From: a virus
Length of the DNA: 20,184 nt
Strand: one strand, 5' to 3'
Virus record (IMG/VR): IMGVR_UViG_3300025120_000748
Location: 1 to 20,184 of that record
A program made the translations under genes and the position numbers. The notes beneath the pieces are model-generated. The model was not told where the DNA came from. It saw only the letters and a program-made list of their open reading frames with translations, and searched no databases. Positions 1 to 13,144 of this stretch are shown piece by piece (the stretch's first letter is position 1; every line of letters starts with the position of its first letter).

Positions 1-21
1 CATGATCAGCAGTCGCACGGG
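1..21 (+). repeat. HDQKTHG motif, copy 1 (truncated by window edge)
   Basis: Encodes HDQQSHG. The first six residues of the 13-residue motif lie outside the window. It is followed by SWATGRAG, which matches TWATGGAG after copy 4. Confidence 0.8.
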
Positions 22-996
22 AGTTGGGCGACGGGTCGTGCTGGCGCGATCGCGAACTCGTCTGTGACGGGGGAGCCGTCGGGGATCACGTTGGCTGACA
101 TGGTTGAGATTCTGGATGACCCTGCCGCTTTCGGGTTTGAGCCTGATGGGTTGCCGTTGAGATACGAAGGTGATGAATCGAAATTTGTCGGGGATTTGCA
201 GAGGGCGGTTGTTGACGGGCACGTCATTCGCGAGGCAAGACAGGACGAGCAGTTTAGGCGAGCCGCTGAACTTACTGATGGACAGAAAGATGATCTTGTG
301 GATTACTTTGAGACTATCCGTAATGAGGGAACGGTTTTCGTGGCAGCCCACCCGCTTCACGCCGCACAAATAATTGAATTGGGGGAGTTCGATACGGTCT
401 TTGAGACTAATACGTCAAACGGCACAGTCAATTACGAGGCGCGTCGTCGTGAGGAGTTCGCGTCCCATGACCTGCACCCGAACGTCGACCCGGACCTGCG
501 TCCCGTTTACGGTTACGTCGCTTTCGACAATCCGGTAGTAAAGTCAGTAGACCAATATGGGAGCGTGCGGTTTGAGTTGAAGCCAGAGGTGAAAGAACGC
601 ACCACGATGACTGATGGTGACTCTCTTGGTTCTAAGGCTACGCCGATCCCGATGTCAGGTGATCCGATAACACAGCGGGAGGCCGTGGGTGGGTCTTTGG
701 GCTGGCAAAGTATGTCTGGACAAATGCTGGATGAGGTAAACGCAGCCGGGGCGTATTTCCCCTCGATCTTAGATGAGTCGTCACCGCAACTGCGTTTTCC
801 TCGCGGCGAGACAGCAATAGCCAACATTATTGACCGAACGGGCGTTGGCTCGACTCGTTACATTGAGGCGCAAGTAAAGGGCGGTGTGAAGATGGACGAC
901 GTCGCACGGATACACGTCGACGGTGCTTTCGTCATGGGAGATGTTGTTGTGGCTGCCCAAGAACGTGGCATCGAGATCGTGTACCACGAAGAATAA
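1..996 (+). CDS. HDQKTHG-motif protein with DUF3626/ADP-ribosyltransferase-like domain (5' partial)
   Basis: The frame is open from base 1, so the gene begins left of the window; the GTG at 64 is an internal Val codon. The first visible residues (HDQQSHGSWATG) are the end of the histidine-rich motif repeated five more times downstream, and they resemble the copy at 2840-2878, which continues THGTWATG. The C-terminal half has the pattern RPVYGY, then YGSVRFELKPEVKERTT, then GDSL, then RYIEAQVKGGVKMDDVARI. I associate this with DUF3626-like phage and bacterial proteins and, more loosely, with ADP-ribosyltransferase folds (a late E-x-Q motif). The family call is from memory of motif patterns and is tentative. 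There is no signal peptide or membrane segment in the visible part. A 63-residue ORF follows after 15 bases. Probable role: virion-packaged effector or domain of a larger portal/MuF-type polyprotein. Confidence 0.7.
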   Translation, partial: HDQQSHGSWATGRAGAIANSSVTGEPSGITLADMVEILDDPAAFGFEPDGLPLRYEGDESKFVGDLQRAVVDGHVIREARQDEQFRRAAELTDGQKDDLVDYFETIRNEGTVFVAAHPLHAAQIIELGEFDTVFETNTSNGTVNYEARRREEFASHDLHPNVDPDLRPVYGYVAFDNPVVKSVDQYGSVRFELKPEVKERTTMTDGDSLGSKATPIPMSGDPITQREAVGGSLGWQSMSGQMLDEVNAAGAYFPSILDESSPQLRFPRGETAIANIIDRTGVGSTRYIEAQVKGGVKMDDVARIHVDGAFVMGDVVVAAQERGIEIVYHEE

Positions 997-1011
997 AGAG
1001 AGGCTGTGACT

Positions 1012-1203
1012 ATGGACATGCGACCCGCGCAACCGGGAGAAACGATCGCGTACCGAGCCGACGGTGCGACACTTGTCTTTGACTACAACAAAGACGACTT
1101 GGATTGGGGTCACATCAACATGCCGAACGGTACGAGCGGTCGGGAGGCTCCCTTAGTGAGCCTGCTGGTGCGTGGTGGTTGGACGGCTGAGCCGAGTGAC
1201 TAG
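1012..1203 (+). CDS. small hypothetical protein, 63 aa
   Basis: A 63-residue ORF between two HDQKTHG-motif genes. I prefer the ATG at 1012, because the purine-rich AAGAGAGG ends 8 bases upstream; the in-frame GTG at 1006 would leave almost no spacing. The sequence is acidic and soluble-looking (MDMRPAQPGETIAYR at the start, LVSLLVRGGW near the end), with no membrane segment, cysteine cluster or recognised domain. Its stop codon overlaps the likely GTG start of the next ORF, so the two are probably translationally coupled. A role as an accessory or immunity partner of a neighbouring effector domain is possible, but nothing in the sequence shows it. Confidence 0.6.
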   Translation: MDMRPAQPGETIAYRADGATLVFDYNKDDLDWGHINMPNGTSGREAPLVSLLVRGGWTAEPSD

Positions 1204-4200
1204 CGAGGTGATCCGGTTCGCTCCGGGGTTGAAGCCTGTCCTGAAACATCAGCAGGGTGGGCATGATCAGAAGACGCACGGGCAGCGTGCTGGCGCGGGT
1301 GATGATCGTCCCGCGTTGAGGTTCGATAATCCTGATTATGAGCCGTTCGATTTGCCGTCTGGTTGGACTGAGCGTAGTTACTCAAATATTCAGGCCGACG
1401 TGGAGTACAGGCTGAATAGGACCGCTGAGGAACGAGGAACACCGGACCCTGAGTATGCACGGGAGTTGAGCGCCGAGATTGCGTCTTACACATTTGAGTA
1501 TGACGGCGGTAATGGAACAAGGGTAAGTGTTTACCTGATGGATACTGCTAGCAAATCGCCCGACCCCGAGACTATGACCACGATGCTCAAACGCATAGAT
1601 ACATTACAAGAAGACTTTCCCGTCAAAGACCTCGAAGTGAATTTCGCTAACTATCAGTTCAACGCACTAGATTTGCCTGCTGATAACGGTGGTTTAGTTA
1701 TGCAAGGATCAAAAACAATCCACCTGCGACCGGCCTTCTCTCAAAAGTTAGACGGCGTCATGGTGGAGGACTCAGGTAATCCTCTACGCGACCAATTCAT
1801 GCCTAGTAGAAAAACAGTTACTCAGGGTGAGTACGTTCTGGCGCACGAGTACGGTCATGTGAACGATCGGCGTAGCAACTCCCGACGTTTCAGTGATGCG
1901 GGTGATGGTAAAGATTCGAGGGGACTCAGAAACAGTACGCATATTTTCGGCGAACAAATAACGGAAGCGAATGTCGATTTCAAGCGAAGCGAGTATTCCA
2001 ACTCGAACGAAGGGGAACAGTACGCTGAGGCGTTCGCTGAGTACGCGCTAACCGGCGGTACGACCGATATCGGTTATGTGCAGGCGTATGCAGAAAAGTA
2101 TGATTGGGGTAGAAACTTGGAGAAGGCTGTCGATGATTTAGGCGACGACGGCGACAAAGTTATTTTCGTTGACACGTTCACAATGAACCCGCCCCCCTAC
2201 ATCATTGTGCGCCCGAAGCCTGCTGTCGTGAAGCACCTCGGCGTAAAGCATGACCAGAAAACACACGGTCGCGGGTCAAGCGTTCGCGCTCCGTTCTACG
2301 ACGACCTAGAAGACAGTCGTAGGGAAGCAATCGAGTACCTGACAGGGGAACGTCTATTCCCCCCGTCGTACAGCGCCGAGGGCGTCAGGCCACCAACGAT
2401 AACGATGAGCGACTCATTCAAGAACAAGGTCAACGCAGTTCGCAAGAAGGTGAAAGCGTGGGGCGCGGAGCGTGAGAGGCGGGAGTTAGCGGAGATGACA
2501 CCTAGCGAGGTGGCTGAGTTGGCTGCCGTGAATCAAAGCCGGGGCGCGAAGCGGGAGGGGCCGAGAAGCCCGTCATCGTGGGAGGGGCTTGTCCCGTCGA
2601 CGTGGGTGAATCCTTTCGCCGAGCCTGCTATGGCTAAGGCCGCAGATAACGTGTTACGCATCCTGTACCGAGTTTTCAAGGATGTTGTGGATGAGGAAGT
2701 TTGGACGGCGTTGGTGATGGACCCGCGTCCGTTGGATGAGTTGGACGGCCCGCTGGGTGATTTGCTTGATGACATGCTGGATGCGGTCGCGCCGAAGCCT
2801 GCTGTCGTGAAGTTCGCTCCGGGGTTGCGTCCGGTGTTGAAGCATCAGCAAGGCTCGCATGATCAGAAGACGCATGGAACTTGGGCTACTGGCGGCGCTG
2901 GTGGTGACTTTAGTGAGTGGGGGTCGCGTGCTCCGCAGATTCGTGAGATCGCTGAGGTCGCTCCCCCGTTAGCCGAGTTGGGGAGGCTCATGGCTGACCC
3001 GTATGACGCGATCTCGCTGAGAACGGATGACCTTATCGCGGATTTGGTTGAGGAGAGAAAGGACTTGATTGAGTCTTTTCCACCGGATGTCACGATGGTA
3101 AATCCAGAAGACGTAGATGTCTATTCTGACTCCGAGAAAGAGTTTCTTAGACAACAGTCTTTAGATTTCTTTTACGAATACGGTGACGACTTTCCTGATG
3201 CAGGCACAAAATATGATGCTTTACGCGACTACATGAGGCCGACGGCTAATTTTGAGTTTGTGAAGGAAAGTTTGAGTGATGAAGACATGCGACGCCTGCG
3301 AGATCGAGCACAGGGGCTAGTCGAGAGGGAAATGATTGGATCGCTTACGCCGGGGATGAAGGCGGTGTTTGGGATATCCCATCCGGTGACGCTTTCTGAT
3401 GGATCATCAAACGTCATGGAGGTGATGGTTGAGGACGTGACATGGACCGGAGGGCTAGGCAGCGAAAGGCCGACGGTCCAAGTGCTAATGGATGTTTACA
3501 ACAACGACGGATACATTATTGCTTCGGGTGTGCAGAGAGCATTTCGGTTAGGTACAGACGGCAAACTAGAAGTAGAGAATGTTTACCTAAAGATCGGGGA
3601 CGACGCTTACAGGGGTAAAGGGTTCGCGACTGTTTTCAATGAACGTGCCTACGACGCTTACATATCTCAGGGAGTGGAGAGCGTCACGGTCGGTACTGCT
3701 TGGGACGGTGGTTTCGTGTGGGCGAATAAGGGATTCGCGTGGGATGAAGCATCACCACAATCGAACATGCAGACTGCTAGTGATGCGGTGCAGAAAGTTT
3801 TGCGAGACTCACGGTCCTCTGCGTCAACATTAGAGCGTGCCGCAGTCATGTTGGATCAAGTGTCGACACAACAATCGCGATCCGTTCCTGATCTGAGCGA
3901 AATGCCGACACCTATGGAGATCGCGATGCTCGGTTACAGGGATCAAGGCACAGGTGCGTTTGGCAGCATCGAAACAACGACGTGGCCCGGTAAGACAGCC
4001 CTCTACGACGCTAGATGGAAAGGCCGTAAAGAGTTGACACCTGAGAATCTTGGCGGCATCGCTCGCTCGAAGGCAGACATGCGTCGCCCGTCAGAGGTAC
4101 CGGGTCAGAAACCGCTATTCGATAAGAATCCGGTCGTGCAGCAGCCAAGCGCCGGGACCGCAGGGGGAAGGCAAAGCCTTGACGAGGAGGTCATGGCGTT

Positions 4201-4378
4201 GCTTCGACCCATCGGTAAGGCGAAGAAACTGTCGTATTGGGACAAGATCGAGCAGCAGGCAGAGTTCTACGAGAAGTGGATCATGGAGACAGGTCGCGGG
4301 CTTGAGGAAGAAGACCCTGACTCGATGGATGATTTCTTCGCTGCCGCTGTCGAGGCTATGCCGTGGCTCGTTGAGTAG
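1196..4378 (+). CDS. multi-domain polyvalent protein: HDQKTHG motif + Zn peptidase + unknown + GNAT-like domain
   Basis: About 1060 residues; numbering here is from GTG 1196, whose start overlaps the preceding stop. GTG 1208 and GTG 1172 are alternatives. Residues 17-29 carry KHQQGGHDQKTHG. A zinc metallopeptidase follows: HEYGH at 217-221 and YAEAFAEY around 277-284 supplying a plausible third ligand Glu 278. Motif 2 is at 346-358, then about 190 charged residues I do not recognise, then motif 3 at 549-561. Residues ~700-860 look like a GNAT acetyltransferase: YRGKGFA at 805-811 fits the acetyl-CoA loop R-x-x-G-x-A, and GGFVWANKGFAWD at ~838-850 is typical of phage GNAT-like domains. The C-terminus contains PTPMEIAMLGY and a charged helical end. 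The domains are joined by repeated linkers (PKPAVVK twice; FAPGLxPVL twice). Known family behaviour: such domains occur in phage polyvalent proteins delivered with DNA. Inferred role: packaged effector acting early in infection. Confidence 0.78.
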   Translation: MTSEVIRFAPGLKPVLKHQQGGHDQKTHGQRAGAGDDRPALRFDNPDYEPFDLPSGWTERSYSNIQADVEYRLNRTAEERGTPDPEYARELSAEIASYTFEYDGGNGTRVSVYLMDTASKSPDPETMTTMLKRIDTLQEDFPVKDLEVNFANYQFNALDLPADNGGLVMQGSKTIHLRPAFSQKLDGVMVEDSGNPLRDQFMPSRKTVTQGEYVLAHEYGHVNDRRSNSRRFSDAGDGKDSRGLRNSTHIFGEQITEANVDFKRSEYSNSNEGEQYAEAFAEYALTGGTTDIGYVQAYAEKYDWGRNLEKAVDDLGDDGDKVIFVDTFTMNPPPYIIVRPKPAVVKHLGVKHDQKTHGRGSSVRAPFYDDLEDSRREAIEYLTGERLFPPSYSAEGVRPPTITMSDSFKNKVNAVRKKVKAWGAERERRELAEMTPSEVAELAAVNQSRGAKREGPRSPSSWEGLVPSTWVNPFAEPAMAKAADNVLRILYRVFKDVVDEEVWTALVMDPRPLDELDGPLGDLLDDMLDAVAPKPAVVKFAPGLRPVLKHQQGSHDQKTHGTWATGGAGGDFSEWGSRAPQIREIAEVAPPLAELGRLMADPYDAISLRTDDLIADLVEERKDLIESFPPDVTMVNPEDVDVYSDSEKEFLRQQSLDFFYEYGDDFPDAGTKYDALRDYMRPTANFEFVKESLSDEDMRRLRDRAQGLVEREMIGSLTPGMKAVFGISHPVTLSDGSSNVMEVMVEDVTWTGGLGSERPTVQVLMDVYNNDGYIIASGVQRAFRLGTDGKLEVENVYLKIGDDAYRGKGFATVFNERAYDAYISQGVESVTVGTAWDGGFVWANKGFAWDEASPQSNMQTASDAVQKVLRDSRSSASTLERAAVMLDQVSTQQSRSVPDLSEMPTPMEIAMLGYRDQGTGAFGSIETTTWPGKTALYDARWKGRKELTPENLGGIARSKADMRRPSEVPGQKPLFDKNPVVQQPSAGTAGGRQSLDEEVMALLRPIGKAKKLSYWDKIEQQAEFYEKWIMETGRGLEEEDPDSMDDFFAAAVEAMPWLVE
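1244..1282 (+). repeat. HDQKTHG motif, copy 2
   Basis: Encodes KHQQGGHDQKTHG, preceded by FAPGLKPVL. The His residues fall at motif positions 2, 7 and 12. It precedes the zinc peptidase domain. Confidence 0.9.
2213..2233 (+). repeat. 21-bp exact direct repeat, copy A
   Basis: Encodes PKPAVVK directly before motif copy 3. It is identical at the nucleotide level to 2792-2812. Confidence 0.85.
2231..2269 (+). repeat. HDQKTHG motif, copy 3
   Basis: Encodes KHLGVKHDQKTHG, preceded by PKPAVV. It is the most divergent copy in its first half (HLGVK instead of HQQGx) but keeps all three His. It precedes an unrecognised region. Confidence 0.85.
2792..2812 (+). repeat. 21-bp exact direct repeat, copy B
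   Basis: Identical to 2213-2233 and encodes PKPAVVK shortly before motif copy 4. Conservation at silent positions points to recent duplication or recombination at the linker. Confidence 0.85.
2840..2878 (+). repeat. HDQKTHG motif, copy 4
   Basis: Encodes KHQQGSHDQKTHG, preceded by PKPAVVKFAPGLRPVL. That combines the linkers seen separately before copies 2 and 3. It precedes the GNAT-containing part. Confidence 0.9.
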
Positions 4379-4392
4379 AATGTCTCGTTGTT

Positions 4393-4414
4393 CTAGGGGT
4401 TGACGGTAACCTAG
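4393..4414 (+). other. short imperfect inverted repeat between large ORFs
   Basis: In the 66-base gap after the 1060-residue ORF, CTA..GGTT pairs with AACC..TAG (two-base GG bulge, six-base loop). There is no T-run after it, so it is not a standard intrinsic terminator. A TTGACG at 4400-4405 lies inside it, but I see no good -10 at the right distance. Function unknown. Confidence 0.3.
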
Positions 4415-4444
4415 AGGGACACTACGCGAACTCTGAGGATGCCC

Positions 4445-6871
4445 GTGACTGATACTGCGACCCGACTCACGGGACTCAGCGACGATGATCTTCTCAGCCT
4501 CCACAAGAGGCTTGACGCTAGAGACATTGAGGCACCGGCTGTTGTCGAGGCTCATCACCTCGCCTCGACGGAGATCGCTCGTCGGGGGTTGAGTCACGGT
4601 CACACGGATGATGAATGGTCGAAGGCAGCCATTGAGACGCAGGTAATCGAGGTTGACTCCCCTGATGACATTGAGGCTCCCGCTGGCATGGAGAAGGCGT
4701 GGGGGGCTGCTTTAGCGAACGGCGGGACGGTTTCTGTTTTCTTGACCGTCGACGGGTACGTCTTGAAGGCAGACCCGACGGTGTCCGACGTTCACGTCCC
4801 GACGATCATGGGTGGGAAGAAACGGAAGCCTTTAGAGAAGACGATCCGTGAGGAGGACGGCAAGTTCGTCGTCTACTCGGAGGACATGAGCCGCAAGTTC
4901 GGAACCTACGAGAGTCGCGATGAGGCCGAGGAGCGTCTGCGTCAGATTGAGCGGTTCGCTAAGGCTGAGTCGTACTCGATCCCTGAGAGCGTGCAGTCAG
5001 CCGCTAAGCAGGGGTTGGAGTGGATCGCCGACGGTAAAGCAGGTAGCGGGTTCACGAGCACAGGACGGAACAGGGCTAATCAACTCTCTGCTGGTGGGAG
5101 CGTGTCTCGGGCGACCCTCGTGAAGATGCGGGCGTGGTTCGCACGGCACGCTGTCGATAAGAAAGCGAAAGGGTGGGGCGATAAAAGTAACCCGACGCCG
5201 GGGATGGTCGCGTGGTACGCATGGGGCGGTAATCCGGGTAGGTCGTGGGCTAATGACGTGCTGGGTCGAGTTGAGAAGCGTGCAGCGCCGGAGGCTGTGA
5301 CTGACCTCGGGGTGAACACGGAGAACCGTCAGTACGCGATCGACGAATACATGTACGGGCCGATGAACCCCGAGGAGCCGGGATCGTATTGGGAAGACCT
5401 CGGTGAGGTGTGGGGGGTTGAGGCTGAGACGGCGATGACTACGCGGTGCAGGAATTGTGCTGCGTTCAATCAGACTCCCGAAATGATTGGGCAGATCGAG
5501 GATGCCATTGGTGAGGCTGGGGAGAAAGTCGTCGCGGCAGCGGACATCGGCTATTGCGAGTTATTTGAGTTCAAGTGTGCGGGTGCTCGTGCTTGCGCGG
5601 CGTGGATCGGTGGGGGGCCGATCAAAAAGCATCAGCAGGGCAAGCACGACCAGAAGTCTCATGGGCGTCGCGCTACGGCTTTGGAACCTGCCGTGGCTGA
5701 CTCCATCATTAGTCAGACGATGGAGCAGGGTGGCTTGACGGTGAGCATGGTTGACGGCTCGACGCCTCCGAGCGGTTACATGGTCGCGAGGACTGAGGGT
5801 GTGAAGCCCGCGATCGTGGAAGCCTCTGAGTTCTATGACTCTGAGGCGGGTCCGAAGGCCCTTGGATCGTTCCTGAAAAACAACAGGGAACAGTTGACCG
5901 GGGGTGACTATCTAGGGGTTTGGCATGAGGTAGACTCGGGTAAAGTGTTCTTGGATGTTGCTCAGAACGTGTCAGACCGTGCGACTGCTGAGAGAGTTGG
6001 TCGTGAGCGTAATCAGATAAGTATTTGGGATGTAAGTCAAGGTGAGGAGATTGAGACAGGTGGCACAGGAGAAATCAGTAAATCCGATCCAATCGGTGAG
6101 GCTGCCGGACCTCTCGGAGATGACGGACGAGGAGATCGACGCTTACGCAGCGGAGATTTGGCAGAAGATTCAGAAGTAGAGAAACATCAGCAGGGTAAGC
6201 ACGAGCAGAAAAGTCACGGGCGGGGCACAGCGAGTGTTGACCTACCCCCGATTAGAGACAAAGAGCCGACCGCTGAGAGGTCACCGGAGTCTGTGGAGGC
6301 CGCTAGGCGGCTTCGCGCTGAGGCAGTTGCCGCTGAGCCGGAGTTCACGTCGATGATGGTGGATGTCGTGTCGGAGAACGGTGGTCGCCTCGAACATCTT
6401 GATCATCGCATCAAGACGACGGATTCTTTGGCTCGCAAGATTCAGTTGAAGGCTGATGAACACAACGTCAGCGTCGATGAGGCTAGGGGCTTGATCGGCG
6501 ACAGCGTCCGGTACACGTCAGTCTTCCCTGACGCTGATTACGTCCAAGGCACGCAGTCGATGGTCGATGCTTTGCAGGCAGACGGCTACGACGTGCGGGT
6601 GAAGGACTATTGGTCGATGACTGATGACCCGTACAAGGGAGTCAACATCAAGGCTCAGAAAGACGGCTTGATGATTGAGTTGCAGACGCACACTCCGGGC
6701 AGTCTTGCCGTCAAGGAGGGCAAGATGCACAAACTGTACGAGCAGTACCGTTCGGAGAAAACACCGCAACGGCAGGCGCAGTTGAGGGATGAAATGATGC
6801 AGGCATCGGAGGAGATTCCTCAGCCTCCGGGTGTCGGTCAAGGTGCCTTCGGTGGAGTGGGGGAGGAGTAA
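4445..6871 (+). CDS. multi-domain polyvalent protein ending in RelA/SpoT-type (p)ppGpp synthetase domain
   Basis: About 808 residues; I prefer GTG 4445 because TGAGGA sits 5 bases upstream, while ATG 4439 would touch it. Domains in order: ~141-172, a small phage domain (FGTYESRDEAEERLRQIERF); ~179-280, a phage-associated helical domain (WIADGKAGSGF ... ARHAVDKKAKGW ... AWYAWGGNPGRSWA); 335-384, a cysteine cluster C335-x2-C338 ... C371-x6-C378-x5-C384, probably metal binding; motif KHQQGKHDQKSHG at 395-407; ~408-550, a phage domain of unknown function (GYMVAR ... YLGVWHEVDSGKVFLDVAQN); motif KHQQGKHEQKSHG at 580-592; ~610-790, a RelA/SpoT-like domain. The last has R655-x-K657-x3-S661-x3-K665, D686 in DSVRYT, YKGVNI, and E745-L-Q-T-H, the residues expected for pyrophosphate transfer from ATP to GDP/GTP or another acceptor. 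No HD hydrolase domain is present. The prohead protease starts 3 bases after its stop. Confidence 0.8.
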   Translation: MTDTATRLTGLSDDDLLSLHKRLDARDIEAPAVVEAHHLASTEIARRGLSHGHTDDEWSKAAIETQVIEVDSPDDIEAPAGMEKAWGAALANGGTVSVFLTVDGYVLKADPTVSDVHVPTIMGGKKRKPLEKTIREEDGKFVVYSEDMSRKFGTYESRDEAEERLRQIERFAKAESYSIPESVQSAAKQGLEWIADGKAGSGFTSTGRNRANQLSAGGSVSRATLVKMRAWFARHAVDKKAKGWGDKSNPTPGMVAWYAWGGNPGRSWANDVLGRVEKRAAPEAVTDLGVNTENRQYAIDEYMYGPMNPEEPGSYWEDLGEVWGVEAETAMTTRCRNCAAFNQTPEMIGQIEDAIGEAGEKVVAAADIGYCELFEFKCAGARACAAWIGGGPIKKHQQGKHDQKSHGRRATALEPAVADSIISQTMEQGGLTVSMVDGSTPPSGYMVARTEGVKPAIVEASEFYDSEAGPKALGSFLKNNREQLTGGDYLGVWHEVDSGKVFLDVAQNVSDRATAERVGRERNQISIWDVSQGEEIETGGTGEISKSDPIGEAAGPLGDDGRGDRRLRSGDLAEDSEVEKHQQGKHEQKSHGRGTASVDLPPIRDKEPTAERSPESVEAARRLRAEAVAAEPEFTSMMVDVVSENGGRLEHLDHRIKTTDSLARKIQLKADEHNVSVDEARGLIGDSVRYTSVFPDADYVQGTQSMVDALQADGYDVRVKDYWSMTDDPYKGVNIKAQKDGLMIELQTHTPGSLAVKEGKMHKLYEQYRSEKTPQRQAQLRDEMMQASEEIPQPPGVGQGAFGGVGEE
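5627..5665 (+). repeat. HDQKTHG motif, copy 5
   Basis: Encodes KHQQGKHDQKSHG directly after the cysteine-rich segment and before the GYMV-type phage domain. Confidence 0.9.
6182..6220 (+). repeat. HDQKTHG motif, copy 6
   Basis: Encodes KHQQGKHEQKSHG and precedes the RelA/SpoT-like domain. It is the only copy with Glu in place of Asp after the second His. Confidence 0.9.
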
Positions 6872-6873
6872 TC

Positions 6874-7728
6874 GTGCATTGTGAGTATTACAAGGGCGTA
6901 GACGAGTTCGATGAGACGTTCCGTGTCCTGTACCGGCTGTTCGATCCGGTTAGTGAAGACTTTGGCGAGTTCCGGTGGACGCCGAACGGTTGGGTTCCGA
7001 CTGAATCGGTGATGTATCAGTTGATCAACGATCCTGACTCGATCCGCAAGATCACCGAGGATGAGGCGAAAAAGTTAGTTCCTGAGGCGTTCGCGACTCT
7101 GGTCTCGAAGCAGGTAACGGAACGCATGTTCACTCTCGGGCCGATGTATGTGCCTAACGTGAAAGACGCTCACGCTGAGTGGACGGACCCGGAGGAGTTG
7201 CAGAAAGCGGTTTGGGAGTACGTCCAAAAGGGTGACCGGCGTATCCGCTTGCAGCACGATAAGGATGTCGTCGCGGGCGAGTGGTTGGAGATCATGGCGT
7301 GGCCTTACGAGGTTGAGGCTCCGATCCTGATGAAAGACAGTTCGGAGGGGTCTATGAAGTTCCCGCCGAACACGGTTTTTCTAGGCGTGAAGTGGGAGCC
7401 GTGGGCGTGGGACATGATCAAGGAAGGGAAACTGCGCGGGTACTCGATCGGTGGGCGGGCCGAGCGGCTCTTAGCGGACCTTCCCGAGGAGTACGTCGGT
7501 AAGGCTCAGGCTCCGTTCGAGGACGCTATTCGCATTGAAGCGGAAGATTTTGTCGCGCCTGAGGTCGTTGAAGAAGTCGATTTAGAGCAGCGGATCGCGG
7601 CGGCAGTCGCCGAGGCCGTCAAGTCAATAAACCCTGTGGTGAACGTCGTTATGCCGGAGGATAAGCCGAAAGTGCGTAGAGTAGAGCGGGACGCCCACGG
7701 AAACATCTCGCGAGTTATTGAGGAGTAG
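6874..7728 (+). CDS. prohead maturation protease, XkdF-like
   Basis: 284 residues from GTG 6874, with a GGGGAGGAG ribosome binding site about 6 bases upstream and only 2 bases after the previous stop. Two blocks match the XkdF-type prohead protease pattern: RLQHDKDVVAGEWLEIMAWP (His 128) and WDMIKEGKLRGYSIGGRAERL (Ser 191). His 128 and Ser 191 are my candidates for the catalytic pair, by analogy to herpesvirus/HK97-type serine proteases. Before them lie about 110 residues I do not recognise, and the C-terminus is acidic and helical. Its expected job is to cleave scaffold and other internal proteins during capsid maturation. Its position directly after the HDQKTHG-motif ORFs makes those proteins possible substrates. 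Confidence 0.72.
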   Translation: MHCEYYKGVDEFDETFRVLYRLFDPVSEDFGEFRWTPNGWVPTESVMYQLINDPDSIRKITEDEAKKLVPEAFATLVSKQVTERMFTLGPMYVPNVKDAHAEWTDPEELQKAVWEYVQKGDRRIRLQHDKDVVAGEWLEIMAWPYEVEAPILMKDSSEGSMKFPPNTVFLGVKWEPWAWDMIKEGKLRGYSIGGRAERLLADLPEEYVGKAQAPFEDAIRIEAEDFVAPEVVEEVDLEQRIAAAVAEAVKSINPVVNVVMPEDKPKVRRVERDAHGNISRVIEE

Positions 7729-7733
7729 AAGGT

Positions 7734-8096
7734 ATGGCTGGAATCGTAAATGCTGGAAAGCATTTGATGTTGGCGGGTTTCTCTGGAACGGCTGTTCATT
7801 CAAGCCTCCACACGGCTGACCCCGGATCGGATGGTTCTAGTGAGGTGTCGGGTGGCTCGCCTGCCTACACTCGTGAGTCGATCTCGTGGGCTAGTCCGTC
7901 GAGTGGAGCGGTGGCGAGTAACTCGAACATAGTTTTCGATGTGCCTGCGAGCACGACGATCACGCATCTTGGTTATTGGTCAGCCTCCTCCGGCGGCACT
8001 TTTTATGGGTCTCGCGCTCTCGACACAAATCAGACGTTCGCTACTCAGGGCACTTACACGATTAGTTCAGGGAACCTTACTGAAACTGTGTCGTAA
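7734..8096 (+). CDS. putative virion surface/decoration protein, 120 aa
   Basis: 120 residues from ATG 7734, five bases after the protease stop. It is small, beta-rich and low in charge, with the pattern LHTADPG ... EVSGGSPAYTRESISW ... FDVPASTTITHLGYWS ... GTYTISSGNLT. I recognise this as a common phage structural protein usually found near head or fibre genes, without a characterised function. Its stop TAA shares one base with the ATG of the next gene, so the two are coupled. It may be a capsid decoration or fibre-base protein. Confidence 0.65.
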   Translation: MAGIVNAGKHLMLAGFSGTAVHSSLHTADPGSDGSSEVSGGSPAYTRESISWASPSSGAVASNSNIVFDVPASTTITHLGYWSASSGGTFYGSRALDTNQTFATQGTYTISSGNLTETVS

Positions 8097-8881
8097 TGGC
8101 TGTCGGGCTTTTCACGCTTGATAGCGCCACTCTCGGTGTTCTCGACACGAGCGTCCTCGGTGGCGACGGAACGGGTTTCGTCACCGGATCGGTTAGCAGT
8201 TCCGGGTCAGTCACGGGTTCGGTTGGTTTCTCCGGTTCGGTATCGGGGAGCGTAAGTTCCTCTGGATCGGCGACCGGCGCTGTCGGCTTCAAGGGCACAG
8301 TAAGCGGTTCTGTCGCATCCTCGGGCAGTTCGACGGGGACAGTTGCCTATCAGGGCACCGTAAGCGGCTCTGTCGCGTCTTCTGGATCGGTTTCCGGCTC
8401 TGCGGCACGCAACGGCTCGGTAACCGGCTCGACGGCCTCTAGCGGCGTTGCAGCAGGCTCGCCGCAGTTGAGCGGGTCGATCTCCGGCTCTGTCACCTCA
8501 TCGGGCACCGTGTCAGGTGCCGAGGGCGCTACGGGGAGCGTCTCGGGTTCTGTCGCGAGTTCGGGGTCAGTCACGGGTGTTTTCGGCGCGGTCGGCTCCG
8601 TATCCGGCGTGACTACATCGACGGGGTCAGTTGTCTCCGCTGATCGGTCTGGAAGCGTCTCAGGTAGCACGTCGTCGTCGGGGACGGTGGTCGGAGTTGC
8701 TTCCGGCGGTGCTCCTGCTGCCGGGGGCGGTGGCTCCCTGCCGATCGTTGTCGCGATGCCTAAAGTGTCGCCGTTCGGTTTTGTTTGGGGAGTGTCACAG
8801 TCGGCGGGGTCGATTGAAGGATCGCGTCGTGTACGGGAGGATGAGGACGTCGAGTTACTGGAACTACTCGGAGTCCTGTGA
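8096..8881 (+). CDS. Gly/Ser-rich repeat protein, probable fibre or surface structural protein
   Basis: 261 residues, starting on the overlapping ATG at 8096. After about 26 residues it contains nine units of about 20 residues (8174-8710) of the form G-[S/T]-V-[S/T]-G-S-V-x-S-S-G-S-x-x-G followed by five variable residues. One unit is 19 long. The regular alternation of Val with Gly/Ser suggests an extended beta structure such as a beta-helix, or a flexible stalk. The last ~65 residues are different: a Gly-rich linker, then VSPFGFVWGV and an acidic tail ending EDVELLELLGVL. No enzymatic motifs are visible. Next to a decoration-like gene and the protease, a head-surface or fibre role is most likely. 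Confidence 0.72.
   Translation: MAVGLFTLDSATLGVLDTSVLGGDGTGFVTGSVSSSGSVTGSVGFSGSVSGSVSSSGSATGAVGFKGTVSGSVASSGSSTGTVAYQGTVSGSVASSGSVSGSAARNGSVTGSTASSGVAAGSPQLSGSISGSVTSSGTVSGAEGATGSVSGSVASSGSVTGVFGAVGSVSGVTTSTGSVVSADRSGSVSGSTSSSGTVVGVASGGAPAAGGGGSLPIVVAMPKVSPFGFVWGVSQSAGSIEGSRRVREDEDVELLELLGVL
8174..8710 (+). repeat. nine tandem ~60-bp coding repeats
   Basis: Units start GFVTGSV, GSVSGSV, GTVSGSV, GTVSGSV, GSVTGST, GSISGSV, GSVSGSV, GSVSGVT, GSVSGST. Period is 60 bases (one unit 57). Units 3 and 4 are the most alike. The protein period is clearer than the DNA period, so the array is not very recent. Confidence 0.85.
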
Positions 8882-10831: not shown

Positions 10832-10878
10832 GCGGGTTGTCGTTCAACGCACCAGCGTTGCACGAGGCCCGCTTTTTT
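10832..10878 (+). terminator. strong intrinsic terminator
   Basis: GCGGG (10832-10836) pairs with CCCGC (10868-10872), TCGT with ACGA inside, and CAACGC (10845-10850) with GCGTTG (10855-10860) around an ACCA loop, with a few mismatches between. Six T follow (10873-10878). It closes the zinc-ribbon/basic-protein cassette. The scaffold ribosome binding site (10884-10890) begins five bases later. Confidence 0.85.
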
Positions 10879-10893
10879 CATGTAGGAGGACAG

Positions 10894-11742
10894 GTGGGGC
10901 GACCTGCTAAGAAGATGGTTAATCTGTCGATCGAGGAGACCTCGGGGGTAGATCACCCGGCTCACCTACACGAAGGTTGGCTCGTGATGAAAGCGGCTTC
11001 GCAAGAAGATGTTGAGACGACTTTGAGTCGCGAAGCGAACCCTAGTGAAGAAGAAATGCAGCCGATCCTGAAAGAGACCGAGGAGGTCAACATGGAAACG
11101 CAGGATGAGCAGACTGAGGTGCAAGAGGCCGACGTCGAGAAGGCAGATAAGCCTTCCTATGAAGAACTCCAAGAGATGCTGAACAAGGCTAACGCTCGCA
11201 TCGAGGAGATGGAAAAAATGATGGGCGACAAGCCTAAGGAGGAAAAGGAAGACGACGATCTTCCCGAGTTCCTTCGTAAGGAAGCACCTGAGGGTGTTCG
11301 TAAGGCTTTCGAGTCGATGCAGAAGGCTGCGGAAGACGCGCAGGCTCAGGCTGAGGCAGCCGAGGCTGAACTCCGCAAGGAACGCTCGGAGCGTGCCGAC
11401 GCTGACTCGGTCGTGAAGGCTCGCGAATCGTTCTCCAATCTCGGCCTTGATGCTGAGGCAGTTGGTCCCGCTCTGCGGCGTCTGGCTGAAACTGATGAAG
11501 ACTTAGCGAAATCCGTTGAGGATGTTTTGACCGCCGCTAACGCGAAGGTCGAGTCCGCTGACTTGTTCGCTGAGATCGGGAAGTCTGCCCGCCCTGCGGG
11601 TAGCGCCTACGAGAAGGCTGAAGTTATGGCTAAAGCCGCCGTTGCTGATGGTAAGTCAGCGACATACGAACAGGCGCTCTCTGACGTGTTCACGTCTGAC
11701 AGCGACCTTTACATGTCCTACCTCGCCGAGCAAGGAAAGTGA
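10894..11742 (+). CDS. capsid scaffolding protein
   Basis: 282 residues from GTG 10894, preceded by AGGAGGA (10884-10890). The longer open frame upstream runs through the terminator and is rejected as a start. The N-terminus has KMVNLSIEETSGVDHPAHLHEGWLVMKA, a segment common in phage scaffold/protease proteins. A long acidic, Glu/Lys/Gln/Ala-rich coiled-coil region follows (about residues 50-190), then a compact Ala-rich end (KAAVADGKSATYEQALSDVFTSDSDLYMSYLAEQ). It is expected to direct assembly of the procapsid and then be removed, probably by the protease at 6874-7728. It lies directly upstream of the decoration and major capsid genes. Confidence 0.78.
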   Translation: MGRPAKKMVNLSIEETSGVDHPAHLHEGWLVMKAASQEDVETTLSREANPSEEEMQPILKETEEVNMETQDEQTEVQEADVEKADKPSYEELQEMLNKANARIEEMEKMMGDKPKEEKEDDDLPEFLRKEAPEGVRKAFESMQKAAEDAQAQAEAAEAELRKERSERADADSVVKARESFSNLGLDAEAVGPALRRLAETDEDLAKSVEDVLTAANAKVESADLFAEIGKSARPAGSAYEKAEVMAKAAVADGKSATYEQALSDVFTSDSDLYMSYLAEQGK

Positions 11743-11753
11743 GGGCCTAGAAA

Positions 11754-12152
11754 ATGGCCTACGAGTTCAGTAATTACGCAGTAAAGGCCACGCTCGTCGC
11801 GGGTGCGGACCTTTCTGCCAAGCAGTACCACTTCGTAAAGATTGACAGCAGCACCGGCAAGGCGATTGCTGTCAATGGAGCAACTGATCGTCCGTTCGGT
11901 GTTCTGCAAAACAACCCGACCGCTGATCAAGAGGCTGAGATTCTGGTGGTTGGCGGCACGAAAATTGTTGCCGGTGGAACCGCCGCAGCGGGCACTCCGC
12001 TGTTCCCGAGTGCATCAGGAAACGCCGTGACTCTGGCTTTCGGAGGCTCCGGCGCGACTGCTTACAGCGTCGGAACATTCGTGACCGCCGGTAGTGCGAG
12101 CGCGACTGCAACCGCCGTTGTCGACTGCGCTAACGCTGGTCGCGGACAGTAG
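11754..12152 (+). CDS. capsid decoration protein (DUF2190-like)
   Basis: 132 residues from ATG 11754. Ala/Gly/Val/Thr-rich beta protein with the pattern LVAGADLSAKQYHFVKID ... AVNGATDRPFGVLQNNPTADQEAEILVVGGTKIVAGGTAAAGTPL, typical of DUF2190-like decoration proteins placed just before the major capsid gene. It should bind the outside of the mature shell and stabilise it. It is separated from the major capsid gene by 14 bases containing AGAGGAGA. Confidence 0.78.
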   Translation: MAYEFSNYAVKATLVAGADLSAKQYHFVKIDSSTGKAIAVNGATDRPFGVLQNNPTADQEAEILVVGGTKIVAGGTAAAGTPLFPSASGNAVTLAFGGSGATAYSVGTFVTAGSASATATAVVDCANAGRGQ

Positions 12153-12166
12153 AGGAGAACTGAGAA

Positions 12167-13144
12167 ATGCCACAGCCAACGATCAGCGACGTACATGTTG
12201 ACGCGATCCTGACTAACATCTCCGTTGCTTACATGCAGCGTGCGGAGAACATGATCGCGGACAAGGTGTTCCCCGTCGTTCCTGTTGATAAGAAGTCGAA
12301 CAAGTATTTCACCTACACCAAGAGTGATTGGTTCCGTGACGAGGCTCAACGCCGCGCTCCGGGCACCGAGTCCGCTGGTGGCGGTTACAACCTGTCGACT
12401 GACACTTACAGCGCCGACGTTTTTGCGTTCCATAAGGACGTGGACGATCAGACGCTTGCCAATGCTGACACTCCCTTGAATCCTCTCCGTGAGGCTGCCG
12501 AGTTCGTCACCGCCCGCTTGATGCTGCGCCGTGAGGTTCAGTTCATTACGGACTTTATGACGACCAGCGTGTGGGCGAATGAGAAGACCGGCGTGGCTTC
12601 AGGCCCGTCTTCCTCACAGTTCATTCAATGGAGTAACTACAGCACCTCCGATCCGATTGAGGACATTGAGGAAGCAAAGGAAGACATCTTGTCGACCACG
12701 GGCTACGAGGGCAACACTCTCGTTCTCGGGTACCAAGCCTTCCGGCAACTCAAGAATCACCCGGATTTCGTCGACCGCTACAAATACACCACTTCCTCGG
12801 TTATCACCGAAGAAATGATGGCACGTTTGTTGGGTGTCGACCGGATTCTCGTCGCGAAGTCCGTGAAGAACGGCGCTGAGGAAGGTCTCGCAGACTCGTT
12901 CGCGTTCAACTTCGGTAAGGCTGCTTGCCTGCTGCACGTTGCACCGAACCCCGGTCTGATGACTCCGAGTGCTGGCTACATCTTCGCGTGGACGGGTGTA
13001 TCGGGTGGATTGGGCGCTACCGTGGGAACCTCACAGTTCCGCATGGAGAGCCTTCGTGCCGCTCGCGTTGAGGCTGAGTTCGCTTTCGACAACAAGGTTG
13101 TCGCTTCCGATCTCGGTTACTTCTTCGCTTCCTGTGTCGCTTAG
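12167..13144 (+). CDS. major capsid protein (HK97-like fold)
   Basis: 325 residues from ATG 12167, with AGAGGAGA upstream. The size, the position between decoration and connector genes, and the pattern support this: an N-terminal helix (AENMIADKVFPVVPVDKKSNKYFTYTKSDWFRDEAQRRAPG), a long alpha helix (PLNPLREAAEFVTARLMLRREVQF), TGYEGNTLVLGYQAFRQLKNHPDF, then LLGVDRILVAKSVKNGA and a closing TSQFRMESLRAARVEAEFAFDNKVVASDLGYFF. It lacks a long N-terminal delta domain, fitting the separate scaffold gene. Confidence 0.88.
   Translation: MPQPTISDVHVDAILTNISVAYMQRAENMIADKVFPVVPVDKKSNKYFTYTKSDWFRDEAQRRAPGTESAGGGYNLSTDTYSADVFAFHKDVDDQTLANADTPLNPLREAAEFVTARLMLRREVQFITDFMTTSVWANEKTGVASGPSSSQFIQWSNYSTSDPIEDIEEAKEDILSTTGYEGNTLVLGYQAFRQLKNHPDFVDRYKYTTSSVITEEMMARLLGVDRILVAKSVKNGAEEGLADSFAFNFGKAACLLHVAPNPGLMTPSAGYIFAWTGVSGGLGATVGTSQFRMESLRAARVEAEFAFDNKVVASDLGYFFASCVA

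Follow-up and report, generated by a model that had tools for sequence, protein, structure and literature searches.

A short histidine-containing motif occurs six times in a 20,184-base virus record from IMG/VR (IMGVR_UViG_3300025120_000748; the whole of this stretch is referred to here as the window), each time in front of a different protein module. Comparison with related contigs showed that the motif occurs family-wide in a group of tailed phages, most of them uncultured. By analogy with the capsid-targeting sequence of phage T4, we see an even chance that it is a portable head-targeting and/or processing tag that heads interchangeable cargo destined for ejection.

The preliminary description of the window listed six copies of the motif, all in frame, in three open reading frames (ORFs A, B and C), and these were confirmed at their positions (Table 1). 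The minus strand of the window contains no copies. A DNA pattern for the core of the motif matched exactly six sites in the window, compared to 0.01 expected, and none of 100 shuffles reached six. There are many synonymous differences among the six copies, which therefore do not constitute a recent DNA repeat. The opening K-H-x2-G-x-H, as first described, was found in four of the five full copies, but not in the copy at 2231 (KHLGVKHDQKTHG), in which the glycine is displaced.

Viral contigs were scanned using the five full window copies as the query, which gave 68 loci, and scanned again with a broader alignment, from which the best 80 of 511 matched stretches were used. Since the motif served to retrieve these loci, finding it there is no proof of anything; it is the copy number, place and company of the motif that are informative. 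The 335 unique instances gave the consensus KH-(2 or 4 residues)-H-D-Q-[KSA]-[TS]-H-G-[NS]-W-A-x-G, in which conservation runs past the 13 residues originally delimited and into x-W-A-x-G (W 90%, A 88%). The first and second histidines are separated by four residues (KH-x4-H) in 152 of these instances and by two (KH-x2-H) in 177. The regular spacing of the three histidines, previously given as exactly five residues, thus holds for the long form but not for the KH-x2-H instances. Close relatives of the window phage carry KHPGHSDQKVHG, which has one extra residue, and similar forms. (Two loci, L078 and L057, had been read as relatives without the motif; this was dropped, as both hold variant forms.) The pattern had 58 matches in ten records, and a backwards control pattern had none. 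Loci commonly hold five to ten copies, and when ORF B and its relatives are aligned (17 sequences), the sole invariant residues lie in and just before the motif. One contig (L183, 983–10528) has about ten copies with several variants (KHPGHADQKSHGG, KHLPHQHNQQTHG and KHLAGKHDQRSHS), making it a good place for defining the limits of the motif.

With variants counted, the motif heads 573 distinct modules that fall into about 76 loose sequence families, among them ADP-ribosyltransferase, DUF3626, SprT-like, zeta-toxin, GNAT and alarmone synthetase types. In stand-alone ORFs, HDQ lies a median of 23 residues from the start, with starts picked by a simple ribosome-site score, and chains contain up to six modules with one motif copy for each. 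The sequences that precede the motif (leaders) belong to a few recurrent classes, whose order along the genome hardly varies (agreement in 154 of 158 ordered pairs). Sixteen of 23 recurrent modules sit behind at least two leader classes, and 11 of 14 recurrent leaders precede at least two module classes, counted with related contigs as separate observations. At the variable positions of the motif, pairs that share only the module are about as alike as pairs that share both module and leader, and pairs that share only the leader are near background. Motif identity thus tracks the module and not the leader, which places the joint at the K-H edge and makes the motif part of the module. The proposal that the motif is a module header is supported by these data: it stands before some 76 unrelated families, lies near the N-termini of stand-alone ORFs and moves with the module downstream.

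Genes for both MuF and XkdF were found in seven records (G001, G002, G003, G005, G006, G007 and G010). The interval between these two genes comprises about 25% of the sequence in the seven records, and contains 46 of their 48 motif copies; the other two are within about 1 kb downstream. The preliminary description had made its proposal depend on the motif being commoner before effector modules than elsewhere, and the concentration of copies in this interval does not refute it. MuF was present in 27 of 29 records. XkdF was present in 22 of 25 records in the first set and in 10 of 19 in the second, which includes many short contigs; two of the three contigs in the first set that lacked it end near the motif genes, and the third has variant forms only. 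According to Pfam, the enzyme shares a polypeptide with an N-terminal MuF in L015, L066 and L072, but not in ORFs B and C, and in such MuF fusions the tag comes after MuF and before the first module. In L179 (7858–11295), the XkdF protease domain directly precedes the tag in the same polypeptide. ORF A aligns from its first residue with residues 388–719 of a MuF-tag-DUF3626 fusion in L008 (199 of 329 residues identical, 60%), that is, with the part behind the MuF-like header, and its missing upstream part is therefore probably MuF. One cargo family is related to gp205 of Rhodococcus phage E3, a distant homologue annotated as a “structural protein”. This context (MuF upstream, XkdF downstream, known MuF-toxin domains and the one structural protein homologue) is consistent with the earlier suggestion that effectors are carried inside the capsid, and suggests that the modules may be packaged.

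The capsid-targeting sequence of T4 is shared by variable internal head proteins and is thought to let related phages load different cargo; it is both an address and a processing site, being the propeptide of IPI–IPIII that is cut by gp21 (PMC9026906). The computations described here establish the conservation, position, reassortment and predicted disorder of the tag; its part in packaging, cutting and ejection is inferred, by analogy with T4. During head assembly, the tag would be bound by a head component, which could be MuF, the phrog_2859 domain protein or the scaffold, leading to the uptake of the module into the prohead. The XkdF protease (ORF D in the window, a candidate reader or cutter of the motif) would then cut at or near the tag, freeing the module from its leader or from a multi-module chain. 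The freed enzymes, which would include ADP-ribosyltransferase, alarmone synthetase, acetyltransferase, metallopeptidase and zeta-toxin-like kinase, among others, would be ejected together with the DNA. Like the T4 sequence, the tag is a short element shared near the N-termini of diverse proteins, which are here presumed to lie inside the head. However, the T4 sequence has about 10 residues and is N-terminal only, whereas the tag is also repeated inside multi-module chains, and no resemblance between the two sequences was noted. Both targeting and cleavage have been proven in T4, whereas we infer them for the tag, in the case of cleavage from its co-occurrence with XkdF.

Several observations weigh against a tag of this kind. 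The scaffold-like and capsid proteins, which are the usual substrates of a maturation protease, do not contain the motif. Related modules are fused to MuF without a tag in some isolates, such as Microbacterium phage Jera, showing that the tag is not required in all such systems. Targeting alone would not call for repeated tags within one chain. XkdF was also found in five of nine tag-less relatives (at least 18 kb) of the N-terminal region of ORF C, and the association of XkdF with the motif, although suggestive, is confounded and may reflect shared ancestry. Furthermore, Pfam found no MuF and no XkdF in the one bacterial genome that bears a variant of the motif. We put forward more tentatively a broader version, in which a single tag would act both as address and as cut site, serving a large and exchangeable arsenal of enzymes that the virion delivers, fixed leaders and fixed slots for genes would receive tagged modules, and tagging would suffice for ejection. 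How proteins are chosen for transport into the head has been worked out in detail in few phages. A recognizable tag would allow virion cargo to be listed directly from metagenomes, and would turn dozens of uncharacterized module families into candidate host-takeover enzymes.

The strongest rival is that the motif is purely a processing site, at which a protease, either XkdF or a zincin-like cargo module, would cut chains of several modules, while packaging depends on MuF fusion or on the timing of expression. This would account for the single copy per module in the chains, for the tag between MuF and the first module, even though MuF needs no extra address, and for the XkdF domain directly before the tag in L179. 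HExxH signatures are also enriched in tagged ORFs (114 vs. about 6), and processing by a metallopeptidase has previously been proposed for phage polyvalent proteins (PMC5512222). However, stand-alone ORFs with a single module are also tagged near the N-terminus, where a cut would remove just a short leader, 22 of the 104 loci with at least four motifs have no HExxH, and the lack of the motif in scaffold and capsid protein counts against this explanation as well. We consider it rather unlikely that processing is the sole function.

We also considered the possibility that the three histidines and the aspartate hold zinc or another ion, thereby tying the modules together or to a head protein. The near-invariance of K-H, H, D, Q, H and G would be expected in such a case, but the spacing between the first two histidines varies (two or four residues), some variants add a residue after the second histidine, and Asp, Gln, Gly, Trp and Ala are constrained about as much as His. 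No sequence similar to the motif was found among solved structures. In AlphaFold2 models, all five full copies fell in segments with a predicted local distance difference test (pLDDT) score below 50 (residues 1–58, 315–375 and 543–578 of ORF B; those in ORF C are given in Table 1). These models rest on shallow alignments, with 26 sequences for ORF C and 17 for ORF B, and the low pLDDT could also stem from the thin alignments. Nevertheless, a conserved block in a predicted flexible linker looks like a linear tag or cleavage site, either of which would fit a disordered setting better than a structured metal site would. A metal-binding element thus appears improbable.

There is still less to be said for a recombination joint, in which the sequence would be kept at the DNA level as a site for crossover between modules and have no role in the protein. 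Leaders and modules do reassort at the position of the motif, but synonymous positions are conserved no more than background, the joint is at the K-H edge with the motif moving along with the module, and the motif is also conserved in the internal copies. The His, Gln and Lys codons within the motif are used at the background of each locus, which implies that selection acts on the peptide, a constraint at the protein level and not at the DNA level, and the idea of a DNA element, largely refuted on these grounds, was rejected. The Asp codon of the motif is strongly biased to GAC because GAT-C is avoided throughout these genes; in related motif loci, the ratio of observed to expected GATC is 0.44 (0.07 for AGCT). 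Least probable of all is an inert shared linker passed down along with the modules, since the enzymes that follow the motif are less conserved than the motif itself, which persists across about 76 families, even if the modules are related by exchange and the predicted flexible linkers are where an inert linker would be expected. Overall, the interpretation in the preliminary description, which left a packaging tag, a processing site and a metal-binding element side by side, was partly supported.

Two other known systems bear a likeness to the tagged modules. As in phage polyvalent proteins (PMC5512222), several effector-type domains per polypeptide are encoded with head genes, and ORFs B and C both have at least two such domains; the difference is that one shared tag separates the domains here, which are often in separate ORFs. 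In the MuF polymorphic toxins (PMC5576092, PMC12226406), variable C-terminal enzymes, alarmone synthetases among them, similarly come after a MuF head domain, but here the tag separates MuF from the first module, and modules in ORFs that have no MuF are tagged as well.

The features of the window are listed in Table 1.

Table 1. Motif copies, ORFs and modules in the window.
Position	Strand	Feature	Basis or remark
1..21	+	Motif copy 1, HDQQSHG, then SWATG	First half lost at contig end
1..996	+	ORF A, 5' truncated, DUF3626 module	Pfam DUF3626, 2.9e-11
1006..1203	+	Small ORF similar to “slot leader” type (...GYWDEVY...)	Likeness judged by eye
1172..4378	+	ORF B, 1068 aa, three tagged modules	
1244..1282	+	Motif copy 2, KHQQGGHDQKTHG	Predicted disordered, pLDDT about 25
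1283..2230	+	HEYGH module (zincin-like metallopeptidase signature)	Translation only, no Pfam match
2231..2269	+	Motif copy 3, KHLGVKHDQKTHG	Predicted disordered
2270..2839	+	Module of unknown function, mostly helical	Third tagged module
2840..2878	+	Motif copy 4, KHQQGSHDQKTHG, then TWATG	Predicted disordered
2879..4378	+	GNAT-like acetyltransferase module	PDB profile E 0.01; GNAT folds top in Foldseek, E 0.06
4439..6871	+	ORF C, 810 aa, phrog_2859 head-region domain and two tagged modules	
4439..5281	+	N-terminal domain of ORF C, function unknown	phrog_2859, residues 2–267
5627..5665	+	Motif copy 5, KHQQGKHDQKSHG	Predicted disordered linker, ORF C 367–414
5666..6181	+	Module of unknown function	Similar to phrog_17808, phrog_3170
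6182..6220	+	Motif copy 6, KHQQGKHEQKSHG	Predicted disordered linker, ORF C 521–599
6221..6871	+	Alarmone synthetase module (RelA/SpoT fold)	Kin of MuF-linked synthetases and SaEAS
6874..7728	+	ORF D, XkdF-family (Peptidase_S78_2) head maturation protease	Pfam, 3.5e-12
10837..13144	+	Scaffold-like ORF, phrog_673 ORF and major capsid protein	No motif copy in any

The last module of the window is strongly supported as a RelA/SpoT-type alarmone synthetase by its predicted fold and conserved sequence. It resembles the exported alarmone synthetase SaEAS (PDB 8vx3; PMC12691689) in both, with an E value of 5e-15 for the match and 3.6e-10 in Foldseek (TM score of 0.8 on the target). Unlike the window module, SaEAS is a secreted Streptomyces enzyme and is not phage-borne. 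The module is homologous to the C-terminal part of minor head proteins in streptococcal and Pasteurellaceae phages, with about 40% identity to those of pneumococcal phages. This is also the setting of MuF-linked domains of this type from S. pneumoniae and M. haemolytica prophages, which are reported to synthesize (p)ppApp and to be toxic to E. coli (PMC12226406).

The assignments made earlier for the other modules fared unevenly. The DUF3626 domain stood, as did the RelA/SpoT-like one. The GNAT-like assignment is weakly supported; this module also has a partial tblastn match to the MuF protein of phage Jera. The zinc peptidase was reduced to its HEYGH signature. The fifth module, previously called a GYMV-type phage domain, was found to be like two PHROG families, and the third was left without a function, as before.

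The small ORF at 1006–1203 is out of frame with ORF B and overlaps its start; in other loci, leaders of this type are found upstream of tags and run in frame into the tag. The phrog_2859 domain of ORF C is fused with the XkdF protease in some relatives. The PHROG labels for ORF D were “RNA ligase” and “DNA methyltransferase”, but the match was confined to the C-terminal part of longer profiles, and the labels probably derive from fusions. Gene 20 of Arthrobacter phage Kovu, annotated as an RNA ligase, has an XkdF-like stretch at its end. The ORF at 8096–8881, behind a head-fibre-like gene, contains repeated GSVSGSVSSSG units. A search of a defence-system library gave no match.

A search for the canonical motif in about 85,000 bacterial and archaeal genomes returned four raw matches, close to a rough chance estimate of about three, and none was confirmed. 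A tblastn search of annotated phages with three forms of the tag gave chance-level matches or none, although short peptides may miss diverged forms, and a literature search by literal motif strings found no paper. A variant of the tag follows a portal-like gene (called by eye) on a contig of the actinobacterium Rhizocola hellebori (L173, 9410–11902), which is a possible cultivable source. Related phages in collections have Arthrobacter, Microbacterium and other hosts.

The window is also short of several palindromes, with no AGCT (75 expected), one TTAA (34 expected) and no TATA (12 expected), and CCAGG/CCTGG is likewise absent (19 expected). GATC is avoided in the related loci, but not in the window. 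The palindrome shortage suggests restriction pressure or differences in host methylation.

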